This document shows, piece after piece, positions 7,325-27,170 of a DNA stretch of 64,000 bases. Origin of the DNA: Actinomyces sp. Marseille-P3109 (GTDB lineage Bacteria > Actinomycetota > Actinomycetes > Actinomycetales > Actinomycetaceae); the NCBI RefSeq assembly GCF_900323545.1, contig NZ_OOHN01000008.1, positions 701,941-765,940 of the forward strand. The letters are read 5' to 3'. The notes under the pieces are model-generated. The model was not told where the DNA came from, searched no databases, and saw only the letters and a program-made list of their open reading frames with translations. Positions within the stretch are counted from its first letter, which is position 1. Each line of letters starts with the position of its first letter. The position numbers were made by a program, and so were the translations under genes.

Positions 7325-7382
7325 ACCGACCTTTTCTTCAAAGCCGACGCGGATACGCGTCATCTTTGAAGAAAAGGTCGGT
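7325..7382. terminator. Very strong bidirectional hairpin between convergent genes
   Basis: A perfect 19-bp inverted repeat, ACCGACCTTTTCTTCAAAG (7325-7343) against its complement at 7364-7382, encloses a second stem GACGCG/CGCGTC with a GATA loop. Arms start with T- or A-tracts that serve both strands. The right arm overlaps the last codons of the minus-strand hydrolase, whose stop lies at 7360-7362. Confidence 0.85.
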
Positions 7383-20084: not shown

Positions 20085-20558
20085 TCAGACCCGCATGGCG
20101 GCCAGGGTGAGCGCCGTGGCCATCGCCGCACAGGCTGCCTCGTACCCCTTGTCCTCGTCCGAGCCAGGCCCGCCGCAGCGGGCCAGCGCCTGGGCCTCGT
20201 CGTCGCACGTGAGCACGCCGAAGCCCACCGGTACCCCGGTGTCGAGCGCCACCCGGCTCAGCCCGTCGGTCGCGGCCCGGCACACGTAGTCGAAGTGCGG
20301 GGTGCCGCCGCGGATGACGACGCCCAGCGCGACGACCGCCTCGGCACCGCCCCGCGCGGCGGCCGCGGCGAGCACCGGAAGCTCGAAGGAGCCCACCGCC
20401 CGCACGACGCTCGCCTGAGCTCCGGCCTCCTCGACGGCGCGCAGCGCCCCGGCGACCAGGCCCTCCATGACGCGCTCGTGCCACTGGGCGGCGACGACCG
20501 TCACCCTCATGCCTCGCGCGTGAGGTGCGCTCTGCTCAGGTGCCCCGGATCCGCTCAT
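20085..20558 (-). CDS. ribH: 6,7-dimethyl-8-ribityllumazine synthase
   Basis: A 157-residue lumazine synthase that condenses 5-amino-6-ribitylaminouracil with dihydroxybutanone phosphate. Visible motifs: [15 protein letters not shown] (substrate-binding Trp), [27 protein letters not shown] and [18 protein letters not shown]. The usual PxG-F-ELP and catalytic His (HFDYV) are present. ATG 20558 overlaps the ribBA stop (ATGA), so it is the last gene of the operon; a start at the internal Met17 is possible. Confidence 0.95.
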
Positions 20559-21886
20559 CGTGTCTCTCCCTCGTTCTCGTCGGTCGTGTGCCAGGGCGCA
20601 TCGTCGGCCGTCGCCTCACTGGGCGGCACGTCCGTGCGGGACCCGTTGGGCTCGAGCCCGGTGAGCAGATGGCCCATGCGGTCGCGCTTGGCGCGCAGGT
20701 AGCTGAGGTTCTCCCCGTTGGCGAAGGTCGGCGTCGGCGTCCTGGAGCGGACGCTCACGCCGTAGTGCTCCAGGCCCGCGACCTTGTCCGGGTTGTTCGT
20801 CATGAGCTCGACCGAGCGCACGCCCAGGTGCCGCAGCACCTGGGCGGCGGTGGCGTAGCTGCGGGCGTCGGCCGGCAGCCCCAGCGCGACGTTGGCGTCG
20901 AGGGTGTCCATTCCCTCCTCCTGCAGCGCGTAGGCGCGGAGCTTGTCGATGAGCCCGATGCCGCGCCCCTCGTGGTCGGAGGCGTAGACGAGGACCCCGC
21001 GGCCGCGGGCGCCGATCGTCTCCATGGCGGCGCGCAGCTGCGGCCCGCAGTCGCAGCGCAGGGAGGACAGGACGTCGCCGGTCAGGCAGGCGGAGTGGAC
21101 GCGGGTGAGGACGTCCTCACCGTCCGCGACGCGGCCGCACACGAGCGCGAGGTACTCGGTGCCGTCGACCCTGCTGCGCAGGGCGTGGGCGGTGAACTCC
21201 CCGTGCGCGGTGGGCAGGTGCGCAGAGACGGCCTCCTCGACGAGATCCTCGTGCAGCCACCGGTGGCGCTCCAGGTCGCCGACCGTGATCATGGGCATGG
21301 CGTGGGCGTCGGCGAGCTCTCGCAGCTGGTGTCGGCGCGCCATGGTGCCGTCGTCGTTGACGACCTCCACGAGGACGCCCACGGGCCGGTTGCCCGACAG
21401 GCGCATGAGGTCGACGGCGGCCTCCGTGTGACCGCGGCGCGTGAGGATTCCGCCCTCGCATGCACGCAGGGGGAAGACGTGGCCGGGGTGGACGAGGTCG
21501 GTCGGTGCTGAGTCCGGGTCCGCCAGGACACGGAGGGTGCGTGCCCGGTCGGCGGCGCTCACGCCCGTGGTGACGCCCGTGCGTGCGTCGGCGCTCAGTG
21601 TGAAGGCCGTCCTCTTGGGATCGGTGTTGTGCTCGGTCATCATGGGGATGCCCAGGCGGTCGAGCTCCTGGGCCGTCATGGGTGCGCAGATGATGCCGGT
21701 CGAGTGTCGGATCGCGAAGGCCAGTTGCTCGGTTGTGGCGGTCGCCGCGGGGAGGATGAGGTCCCCCTCGTTCTCCCGGCTCTCATCGTCGACGACCACG
21801 ACCATCCGGCCCTCACGGAGGGCGGTGAGGGCGTCCTCGACGCTGTCCATACGCGTTTCCGGGCGCACGCTCCTCGTGCTCAGCAT
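20555..21886 (-). CDS. ribBA: Bifunctional 3,4-dihydroxy-2-butanone-4-phosphate synthase / GTP cyclohydrolase II
   Basis: A 443-residue fusion. The RibB half (about residues 15-215) has [28 protein letters not shown] and the [13 protein letters not shown] [14 protein letters not shown]. The RibA half (about 220-420) has the zinc ligands in [17 protein letters not shown] and the [16 protein letters not shown] and TNNPDKV motifs. It supplies both precursors of riboflavin. The start ATG at 21886 overlaps the ribE stop by 7 bp; the stop overlaps ribH. Confidence 0.97.
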
Positions 21887-22554
21887 GCCTGCCGCCCCTC
21901 CTCGCTCAGGCGGGCGCCCAGAAGACGCTCGGCGTACTTGGCCATGACGTCGACCTCGAGGTTGACCCGTTCTCCCGGCCGCCTCGTGCCCAGAGTCGTG
22001 CGTCGCAGCGTCTCCGGGATGAGGCCGACGCTGAGCGACGCCCCTGCTCCCGGCGTGGGGGAGACGTCGGGGGCGGCGTCGTGCCGGGCTTCGTTGACGT
22101 CATCGACGTCGATGACGGTCAGTGACACCCCGTCGAGGGCGACCGATCCCTTGACGGCGACGTAGTGGGCGATCTCCCGCGGCAGGCCGACGCGCAGGAG
22201 GTCCCAGTGCTCGCCGTGTTGGCGGCCGAGGACCTCGGCGGTGGCATCGACGTGACCCTGAACGATGTGCCCGCCGAGCCGGTCGGTGGCGCGCAGGGCG
22301 CGCTCGAGGTTGACCGGGTCTCCCGGCGCCTGGGAGCCCAGGGTGGTGCGCGTGAGAGTCTCCGCCATGAGGTCGGCGGTGAAGGCGCTCCCGTGCATGG
22401 CGGCCACCGTCAGGCAGCACCCGTTGACGCTGATGGAGTCGCCCAGGCTCGCGTCCTGGGTGACGGTGGGCGCCTCGATCGTCAGCCGGGCGCAGTTCTC
22501 GACGGTCTCGAGCCGGACGATGCGTCCGAGCTCCTCGACGATTCCGGTGAACAT
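21880..22554 (-). CDS. ribE: Riboflavin synthase, alpha chain
   Basis: A 224-residue protein made of two lumazine-binding domains, each with the MFTGIVEELG- and GGHIVQGHVD-type signatures; the dismutation of two lumazines gives riboflavin. The first domain has DSISVNGCCLTV, the second GSVALDGVSLTV. Start ATG 22554 shares a base with the ribD stop (TGATG), so translation is coupled to ribD. Confidence 0.95.
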   Translation of the reverse strand: MFTGIVEELGRIVRLETVENCARLTIEAPTVTQDASLGDSISVNGCCLTVAAMHGSAFTADLMAETLTRTTLGSQAPGDPVNLERALRATDRLGGHIVQGHVDATAEVLGRQHGEHWDLLRVGLPREIAHYVAVKGSVALDGVSLTVIDVDDVNEARHDAAPDVSPTPGAGASLSVGLIPETLRRTTLGTRRPGERVNLEVDVMAKYAERLLGARLSEEGRQAC

Positions 22555-23600
22555 CAGTGACTCTCCTCGGTGTGGCGGCGGATAGGGGGATGAGTGCGGT
22601 CCCGGTGGTCCGGGCGCTGAGCGCTGTGCCGCGGCCTCGGGACCGCAGGGGCGTCGGGATGGGCGTCGTCGGCCCCCAGGTCACCGGAGAGGCGGACGGC
22701 GAGCCCGTCGCCCGCGCCGAGGACCTCGACGCGGGGATGACGCAGCCGCAGGGCGTCGGTGATCGTCGTCGCCCCGAAGTCGGCGACGGCGGCCGGTCCC
22801 GCGCCCAGAAGTGCGGGGGCCGTGTAGGCGACGACCTCGTCGACGACGCCGGCGCGCAGGAAGGCGGTCGCGAGGGTCGGGCCTCCTTCGAGGAGGACGT
22901 GGCGGATCTCGCGCTCGGCGAGCACGGCGAGGACGGTGCGCGGGTCGTGGTCGGGCAGGAGGAGGTAGTGGTCGTCGGCGAGCACCCTGGAGGTGGGAGG
23001 CAGGCGCCTGGATCCGACGACGACGCGCAGCGGCTGGAGGTGAGCCGGGGCGGGCTCTCCCGTCTCGTCGCGGACTGTGAGGGCCGGGTCATCGGCGAGG
23101 GCGGTGCCGGTGCCCACCATGACGGCGTCGCACTGACGGCGCAGGTGGTGGGCGTCGCGGCGGGCCGCCGCCGGGGTGATCCACCGGCTGGTGCCGTCGT
23201 CGGCGGCGATACGGCCGTCGAGGGTGGCGGCGAGCTTCCACGTCACCATGGGGCGGCCGCGGGTCACGGTGAGGAGCCACGGGCGGTTGAGACGCGCGGC
23301 GTCCTGGGAGCACAGCCCGCGCCGTACCCGCACGCCGGCGGCCTCCAGCGTCGCCGCGCCGCCTCCGGCCGGCTCGGTCGGGTCGTCCTGGGCGTAGATG
23401 ACCTCGGCCACGCCTGCGGAGAGGAGCGCCTGGACGCACGGGCCGGTGCGGCCCTCGTGGTCGCACGGCTCGAGGGTGACGACGACGGTCGCTCCCTGGG
23501 CGGAGGCGCCCGCCGCGGCGAGGTTCGCCAGCGCGTCGACCTCGGCGTGGGCGGTGCCGGCGCCACAGTGGTGGCCCTCGGCGAGGACGTCACCGTCGGC

Positions 23601-23668
23601 GGAGAGGACCGGATGACCTCGTTCACCCCCGTGCAGACGGCCGCGATGCAGGTCATCCGGTCCTCTCC
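23601..23668. repeat. 19-bp perfect inverted repeat inside the ribD 5' region
   Basis: GGAGAGGACCGGATGACCT (23601-23619) is repeated in reverse complement at 23650-23668, with a 30-nt spacer. Each arm holds a ribosome site (GGAGAGGA), CCGG and an ATG. On the plus strand the ATG at 23613 reads MTSFTPVQTAAMQ, which resembles a RibD N-terminus although ribD is on the other strand. Confidence 0.9.
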
Positions 23669-23709
23669 CTCGGGTGCGCTGGGGAGAGACACCGTCACGC
23701 CGGACCCGC

Positions 23710-23726
23710 CGGGTGCACGGCACCCG
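23710..23726 (-). promoter_or_regulatory. Hairpin between the FMN riboswitch and ribD
   Basis: CGGGTGC (23710-23716) and GCACCCG (23720-23726) form a 7-bp stem with a 3-nt loop, about 20 nt downstream of the aptamer on the minus strand. It is a candidate part of the riboswitch expression platform. Confidence 0.4.
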
Positions 23727-23746
23727 GCACGGCATTGTGTGTCCCG

Positions 23747-23871
23747 TGTGCGCTTCCCATCCGGACTCTCACCGTCGGTCCAGGAGTTTCACCTGGTCAG
23801 CCGGTCGCTGGATGCGACCGGGTCGCGGACTGTCACCGCCGGTTCGGACTTTCACCGACCCCAGAGCACAC
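23747..23871 (-). ncRNA. FMN riboswitch (RFN element)
   Basis: Read on the minus strand the region contains the conserved blocks GGTCGGTGAAAGTCCGAACC, GGCGGTGACAGTCCGCGACC, GGTGAAACTCCTGG, CCGACGGTGAGAGTCCGGAT and GGGAAG in RFN order, closed by GTGCTCTGG and the 3' pairing strand. FMN binding represses downstream rib expression. A -10-like TACATT (23892-23897, minus) precedes it. It controls ribD-ribE-ribBA-ribH. Confidence 0.95.
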
Positions 23872-24074
23872 GAGCTCATCTCGTTGGAGAGAATGTACCG
23901 CGCGCTAGTGCGCTCGGCCGCCTCCCCGCGCACATGTGACCAGCCCCACCTCGGCAGGGTGTCCGACCCGAGCCTGTTCTCATACGTGCTCGTACGTGAT
24001 GGTCGCGGACGACGCTCCCAGCTCGGGCGTCCGGATGCGGGCGGCACCGCGGGCAGGCCGCCTGCGCCCGGGCC

Positions 24075-26960: not shown

Positions 26961-27137
26961 TCAGGGTCGTGGGAATCCTGCGGATAGCGTGTCCTGCGTG
27001 AGCAGGGAGATGGAGCCGTTCGGCTGGATCGCGACGTCGTCATCGCTGATCCACCACGGACCGCCGCTGCCCGTGACGCTCTTCAGTGTGAAGCCGGCGG
27101 GGAGCCGGAATCGCAGAACGACAGAGGTCGGGTGCAT
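26961..27137 (-). CDS. Small ORF or 3' remnant of a lost gene
   Basis: A 58-codon frame on the minus strand begins at ATG 27137 and includes RLPAGFTLKSVTGSGGPWW and DDDVAIQPNGSISLL before a TGA. The residue mix (Gly-Trp-Trp, alternating polar/hydrophobic, Asp-rich turn) looks like a beta-domain fragment of a surface or secreted protein rather than random frame. There is no ribosome site and its start lies in the loop of an inverted repeat, so it is more likely the end of a deleted gene. No function can be given. Confidence 0.35.
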   Translation of the reverse strand: MHPTSVVLRFRLPAGFTLKSVTGSGGPWWISDDDVAIQPNGSISLLTQDTLSAGFPRP

Positions 27138-27170
27138 CAAGACTGTCGTGCCCCGACCTCTGTCGTTCTG
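27114..27170. terminator. 19-bp perfect inverted repeat, probable terminator of the secreted-protein gene
   Basis: CAGAACGACAGAGGTCGGG (27114-27132) pairs with its complement at 27152-27170 around a 19-nt loop, ending 12 nt before the stop of the minus-strand secreted protein. Confidence 0.75.

Follow-up and report, generated by a model that had tools for sequence, protein, structure and literature searches.

The riboflavin operon studied here raises the question of how its first gene, ribD, apparently came to lose the beginning of its own product. The operon lies on the minus strand of the window, a 64-kb stretch of DNA from contig 8 (positions 701941-765940) of an oral Actinomyces genome assembled to 3.15 Mb in 8 contigs (G000), and comprises an FMN riboswitch, ribD, ribE, ribBA and ribH (Table 1). 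The ribD locus gives one full-length match in this genome. The body of the gene holds the reductase domain and the rest of the deaminase domain, and its frame extends without a stop as far upstream as an ATG at 23735, with the first kept RibD residue at residue 44 of the open frame. As the first-pass annotation had pointed out, the end of RibD homology coincides with a perfect 19-bp inverted repeat, whose arms, GGAGAGGACCGGATGACCT and AGGTCATCCGGTCCTCTCC, lie at 23601-23619 and 23650-23668 on either side of a 30-bp spacer. At the same place, a second inverted-repeat scan returned 32-nt arms that are 81% complementary. The plus strand of this piece reads GGAGAGG, ATG and MTSFTPVQTAAMQ within a 460-aa plus-strand ORF. 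Its earlier reading as a reversed RibD N-terminus was borne out by relatives, whose RibD begins MTSFTPVQTAAMRRAL or a near variant.

Over the whole 64-kb window, perfect inverted repeats were ranked by length, spacers of up to 120 bp being allowed. The repeat at ribD ties with two others as the longest and the next longest is 12 bp, while in order-2 Markov simulations (n = 6) the longest perfect repeat did not exceed 14 bp. The other two 19-bp repeats, at 7325-7382 and 27114-27170 with spacers of 19 to 20 bp, appear to be intergenic or just beyond ORFs and look terminator-like.

Table 1. Features of the rib operon and of the rebuilt ribD start (window coordinates)
Feature	Position	Strand	Evidence or remark
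ribH, lumazine synthase, open	20085..20558	-	
ribBA, open	20555..21886	-	
ribE, riboflavin synthase, open	21880..22554	-	
Kept ribD body, original frame (LSADGDVL to stop)	22554..23606	-	TIGR00326, PF01872, PF00383
393-aa open frame holding the ribD body	22554..23735	-	first 43 residues unrelated to RibD
130-aa out-of-frame product from native ATG	23264..23656	-	
49-bp inverted copy of ribD start region	23601..23649	+	100% to G001 reverse complement; four-point fit
Inverted copy if 8-bp overlap is assigned to body	23609-23649	+	
Left arm of perfect 19-bp inverted repeat	23601..23619	+	repeat scans, four-point fit
8-bp microhomology common to left arm and body	23601-23608		8/9 proxies
30-bp spacer, reversed RibD N-terminus (part of SFTPVQTAAM)	23620..23649	+	
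Right arm, kept native ribD start	23650..23668	-	single identical copy in relatives
Native ATG in right arm, out of frame with body	23656-23654	-	
Ribosome site GGAGAGG in right arm	23668-23662	-	
FMN riboswitch of rib operon	23744..23873	-	Rfam RF00050, 92.6 bits (gathering score, 66.2)

Relatives of the Actinomyces naeslundii/oris/johnsonii group show the state of the ribD start before the event. Alignment with the ribD of relatives, the check proposed with the first-pass annotation, took in 21 relatives, of which two (G004 and G070) yielded no row. All 19 displayed have an ordinary RibD start with the first helix and NPxVG (PNPRVG in 15, ANPLVG in 4). Both elements are absent from the ORF of the window, in agreement with the earlier statement that the first helix and PNPxVGxV are gone. 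Relatives sharing the rebuilt 5' end, with a conserved protein upstream, had been named as a finding that would overturn the earlier reading of the locus; none of the 19 displayed shares this 5' end, and none of them holds an intermediate of the change. A search of the rebuilt N-terminus (residues 1 to 54) against the protein database returned 46 candidates, none at an E value of ≤10; since the database consists of representatives of 90% clusters only, a lesion-bearing relative could be hidden within a cluster. In each of the 8 relatives' loci that hold the arm sequence it is present once. Their downstream sequence, which had been expected to match the arm imperfectly, proved to be GTCATCCTCTCC, the arm without 5 bases, and by this alignment the ancestral quasi-palindrome is one of 12 paired bases and a 5-base bulge.

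PNPRVG lies close to the start in 60 of the 65 protein-database hits at an E value of ≤1e-100, the exceptions being P0038, P0048, P0049, P0050 and P0054. The protein most similar to that of the window past the lesion is P0016 (321 of 328 aligned positions identical, the highest of seven proteins compared), and it keeps the ordinary RibD start. P0016 is missing 20 residues in its reductase half, between two VLA stretches. In P0038, a RibD of the group, 17 residues including PNPRVGCVIL are missing, apparently between two SPDG-type repeats, and by this comparison it is a separate loss of the PNPRVG motif. P0048, from a 240-kb contig, is a RibD of 261 aa whose call begins only at VAEVIY; it may represent a further strain in which the deaminase half is broken.

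Alignment of the region with relatives by blastn divided the query into a forward segment (1-111), a reverse segment (112-160) and a second forward segment (153-361), with the 49-bp reverse segment being 100% identical to Actinomyces sp. oral taxon 170 F0386 (G001). On the sense (minus) strand, the normal ribD start GGAGAGGACCGGATGACCT is thus followed by an exact reverse complement of 49 bases of the G001 start region and then by the normal RibD body. This arrangement, a left flank, the reverse complement of a nearby ancestral fragment and a right flank, is that of a four-point template switch, and the ordinary start in the 19 relatives displayed resolves the direction of change as descent from the ordinary ancestral sequence. 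With G001 as the ancestor, an ungapped fit of one such switch leaves 1 mismatch over 116 bases (23553-23668). The corresponding fits leave 4 to 7 mismatches with A. johnsonii CCUG 34287 (G060), A. naeslundii NCTC 10301 (G025), A. oris P6N (G065), G007, G010 and G003; for G063 and G011, which are more distant, the figures are 15 and 18. An oral-taxon-170-like parent sequence would therefore explain all 116 bases with a single mismatch.

Measured from where GGAGAGG begins in G001, switch point 3 lies at 0, point 1 at 19, point 2 at 49 and point 4 at 126, so that 107 bp were replaced by 49 with a net change of -58 bp and a frameshift. An inversion of the spacer keeps its length and therefore cannot restore the frame, which upholds the earlier remark that neither orientation does so. 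From the ribD start, 69 to 77 bp of coding sequence are absent. An 8-bp complement (GGAGAGGA/TCCTCTCC) is present at the body junction in 8 of the 9 ancestor proxies; in these, since TCCTCTCC is the reverse complement of GGAGAGGA, the junction is ambiguous over at least 8 bp. G001 differs by one base at this junction, giving a unique solution, and the start-side junction has an overlap of ≤2 bp. The 19-bp repeat is a by-product of the event, 19 bases of flank having been copied in inverted form and also left in place.

We propose, with a probability of about 0.8, that a single inter-strand template switch replaced 99 to 107 bp of the ribD start with an inverted copy of 41 to 49 bp, the ranges being set by the 8-bp microhomology. 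The first-pass annotation had left the choice between a template-switch or fold-back event and an artefact; the relatives now supply the pre-event sequence and one switch fits it, one that would act between strands and not by self-folding. According to the portion of PMC7954356 that sets out the four-point model, the nascent strand can fold on itself only if point 2 lies behind point 1. At ribD, point 2 lies ahead of point 1 (order 3-1-2-4), and therefore self-folding of the nascent strand is excluded and a switch between strands is inferred; reading the event from the opposite side leads to the same conclusion. Synthesis likely arrived from the body side, because the 8-bp complement could prime the first switch there, and the other junction overlaps by ≤2 bp. 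Under this model, a strand copied from the body towards the start would halt in the TCCTCTCC codons, and its 3' end (GGAGAGGA) would anneal on the opposite strand, where the complement of the ribosome site lies. Synthesis would continue for about 41 bases back across the start region, after which the strand would rejoin its original template a short way inside the start codon, with the rest skipped. The native ATG would be left out of frame and enclosed in a hairpin, residues 1 to 36 would be lost, as would deaminase activity, and the cell would depend on imported riboflavin.

The ribD lesion is a known kind of mutation in an unusually clear case. It resembles the short-range switches described in the excerpted text of PMC7954356 in that the flanks and the inverted fragment all come from local ancestral sequence and an inverted repeat results, the point order deciding between an intra- and an inter-strand origin. 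However, the majority types given there, from great apes, are 1-4-3-2 and 3-2-1-4, whereas the ribD case is 3-1-2-4 with a 58-bp net loss, is bacterial and breaks a gene. Quasipalindrome switching in Escherichia coli, as presented in passages of PMC7202029, likewise makes an imperfect repeat in a bacterial gene perfect, but in that model the nascent strand templates itself and few bases are changed, while at ribD the position of point 2 ahead of point 1 excludes self-templating and the copied fragment spans the spacer. Related as well is the yeast REG2 case in PMC8604942, where one inferred intermolecular switch perfected an arm and inverted the spacer; there the spacer is 5 bp and only amino acid replacements resulted, in contrast to the 30-bp spacer, deletion and frameshift at ribD.

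If the lesion were old, the ribD body might be expected to have decayed. Past the lesion, ribD has 4 protein-changing and 1 silent changes unique to the window, six relatives taken together have 32 and 51, and the excess of protein-changing substitutions in the body is not significant (Fisher p = 0.15). G003 was left out of this count because its ribD is split between two contigs, which overlap by 21 bases and show no sign of insertion. Pairwise dN/dS values, obtained with 6 of 8 sequences, were 0.35 to 0.53 for the ribD of the window against 0.26 to 0.49 between relatives and, from small counts, 0.36 to 0.70 against 0.19 to 0.39 for ribE. Relaxed selection on the ribD body was set aside, a ratio of 4:1 against 32:51 not being evidence of decay. 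The lesion is therefore either recent or an artefact.

In the latter case, the organism would have a normal ribD, and its consensus sequence would have been altered by an assembly error or by a fold-back chimera formed during library preparation or amplification. The undetectable decay is in keeping with this, as is the lack of the rebuilt N-terminus in any other protein among the cluster representatives. P0054, from a 1315-base metagenome contig, consists of the opposite strand of ribD joined to the sense strand, and therefore fold-back chimeras of ribD do exist in public assemblies. However, the assembly is near complete (99.98%, 8 contigs, with this contig at 3.09 Mb), and the event is short, with two junctions, a precise 8-bp complement and resumption of the same gene, rather than a long fold-back arm. 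We therefore consider an artefact unlikely.

Two alternatives in which the event is real account for the locus less well. Two or more events, one correcting an arm of the quasi-palindrome and another deleting sequence and inverting the spacer, could have drawn on the 12 bases that the ancestral downstream arm already pairs with the start region, and arm correction together with spacer inversion is described in yeast (PMC8604942). A single switch leaves only one mismatch, though, and no intermediate was found among the 19 relatives displayed, so that this less simple path has very little probability. Perfect repeats flanking a short spacer by a ribosome site would also suit a programmed switch, with a recombinase flipping the spacer to turn ribD on and off, or a small mobile element. 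Against this, the piece is the start of ribD itself, with one full-length locus match in the genome and a single-copy arm in the 8 loci of relatives; a flip would keep the length and restore the frame in neither orientation, with 69 to 77 bp of coding sequence still absent. This reading, the least probable that we considered, was rejected on the missing coding sequence, the single locus and the single arm in relatives.

Given the single inter-strand switch, what remains of RibD can be set against the features of a functional bifunctional enzyme. Residues 1 to 36 of ordinary RibD are lost, including the substrate-contacting Asn-Pro, and the complete deaminase domain with the Asn-Pro of PNPxVG is lacking: PF00383 is matched only from profile position 33 onwards (40.1 bits), compared with position 6 (61.5 bits) in P0001. 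The zinc motifs HAE and PCxxxxxxxxC are present, as AHAEV and EPCDHEGRTGPC, and so is the reductase domain (PF01872, 153.3 bits). An Asn-to-Asp change in EPCDHEG is not specific to the window, since G001 and G028 carry it as well. In the part of PMC3668577 that deals with the substrate site, Asn28-Pro29 of Acinetobacter baumannii RibD are placed at that site, and the oxyanion-binding residues, including Asn28, are described as strictly conserved except for Arg84. The lost Asn-Pro would be the equivalent of this pair, because its spacing to the zinc histidine matches through an alignment with E. coli, and the remnant very likely lacks a working deaminase. No second RibD-type deaminase is among the four PF00383 hits of the genome. 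The three proteins other than ribD carry motifs that we take to be TadA-like, guanine-deaminase-like and Cdd-like, and a second copy or replacement deaminase was rejected, as these hits are not RibD-type.

The native ATG and its ribosome site are predicted to be hidden in the 19-bp stem, their mean unpaired probability being 0.0, compared with about 0.20 in G001 and G060. A 100-nt stretch of the window outdid every one of 200 shuffles in folding (z = -4.17), and a 116-nt stretch of G001 no better than shuffles (z = 0.74). In the G001 and G060 folds, the ribosome site pairs with TCTCTCCCC just upstream (window 23650-23700, minus strand), and this predicted pairing is probably the translation-blocking hairpin of the riboswitch.

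The cell may plausibly tolerate the loss of RibD, because a RibX-like permease stands beside an FMN riboswitch in all 49 genomes of the genus surveyed, whereas lumazine synthase was matched in only 21, with no match in 28. By comparison of coordinates, a permease match (E ≤ 1e-40) lies within about 300 bp of a riboswitch in each genome. Every genome has an FMN riboswitch, exactly two in the same 21 genomes with ribH and one in the others. Riboflavin synthesis is thus patchy across the genus, and the importer candidate is universal. In the genome of the window, the second riboswitch (G000:C8 1017159-1017309) is adjoined by a PF00528 permease and an NMT1-type binding protein (PF09084), and by gene content this locus has the ABC permease and NMT1-type protein behind an FMN riboswitch by which RibXY importers are defined in the portion of PMC4418817 concerned. 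The same portion reports that RibXY of Chloroflexus was shown to transport riboflavin, and by analogy the Actinomyces importer candidate may carry it too. A partial pathway is seen in G031, which has a RibD with ANPLVG and RibD_C, no lumazine synthase match and a single FMN riboswitch. The permease match falls in two overlapping pieces in G003 (G003:C9:5369-6344) and contains stop codons in G019 (2) and G015 (1), possibly reflecting frameshifts or alignment ends. A literature search on riboflavin auxotrophy in oral Actinomyces returned nothing on the subject by title.

These observations present, in a bacterial chromosome, a nearly base-perfect case of complex inverted template switching in which both junctions can be read from relatives and the switch-point order excludes the usual self-fold model. 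They also expose an annotation trap, since the remnant scores above the cut-off of the RibD model TIGR00326 (270.3 bits against 156.35) and would probably be named a working bifunctional RibD. A wider and rather improbable extension is that, in oral Actinomyces, the beginning of the rib operon is by its nature a hotspot of mutation and ribD loss a recurrent first step in losing synthesis, as hinted by the 28 of 49 genomes without lumazine synthase and by the separate in-frame RibD losses in P0038 and P0016. Complementary A/G- and C/T-rich tracts, found at the ribosome site, in an upstream stretch that can base-pair with it and in the Ile-Leu-Ser codons, would then invite template switches and slippage, and lineages with a universal riboflavin importer would give up riboflavin synthesis starting from ribD.
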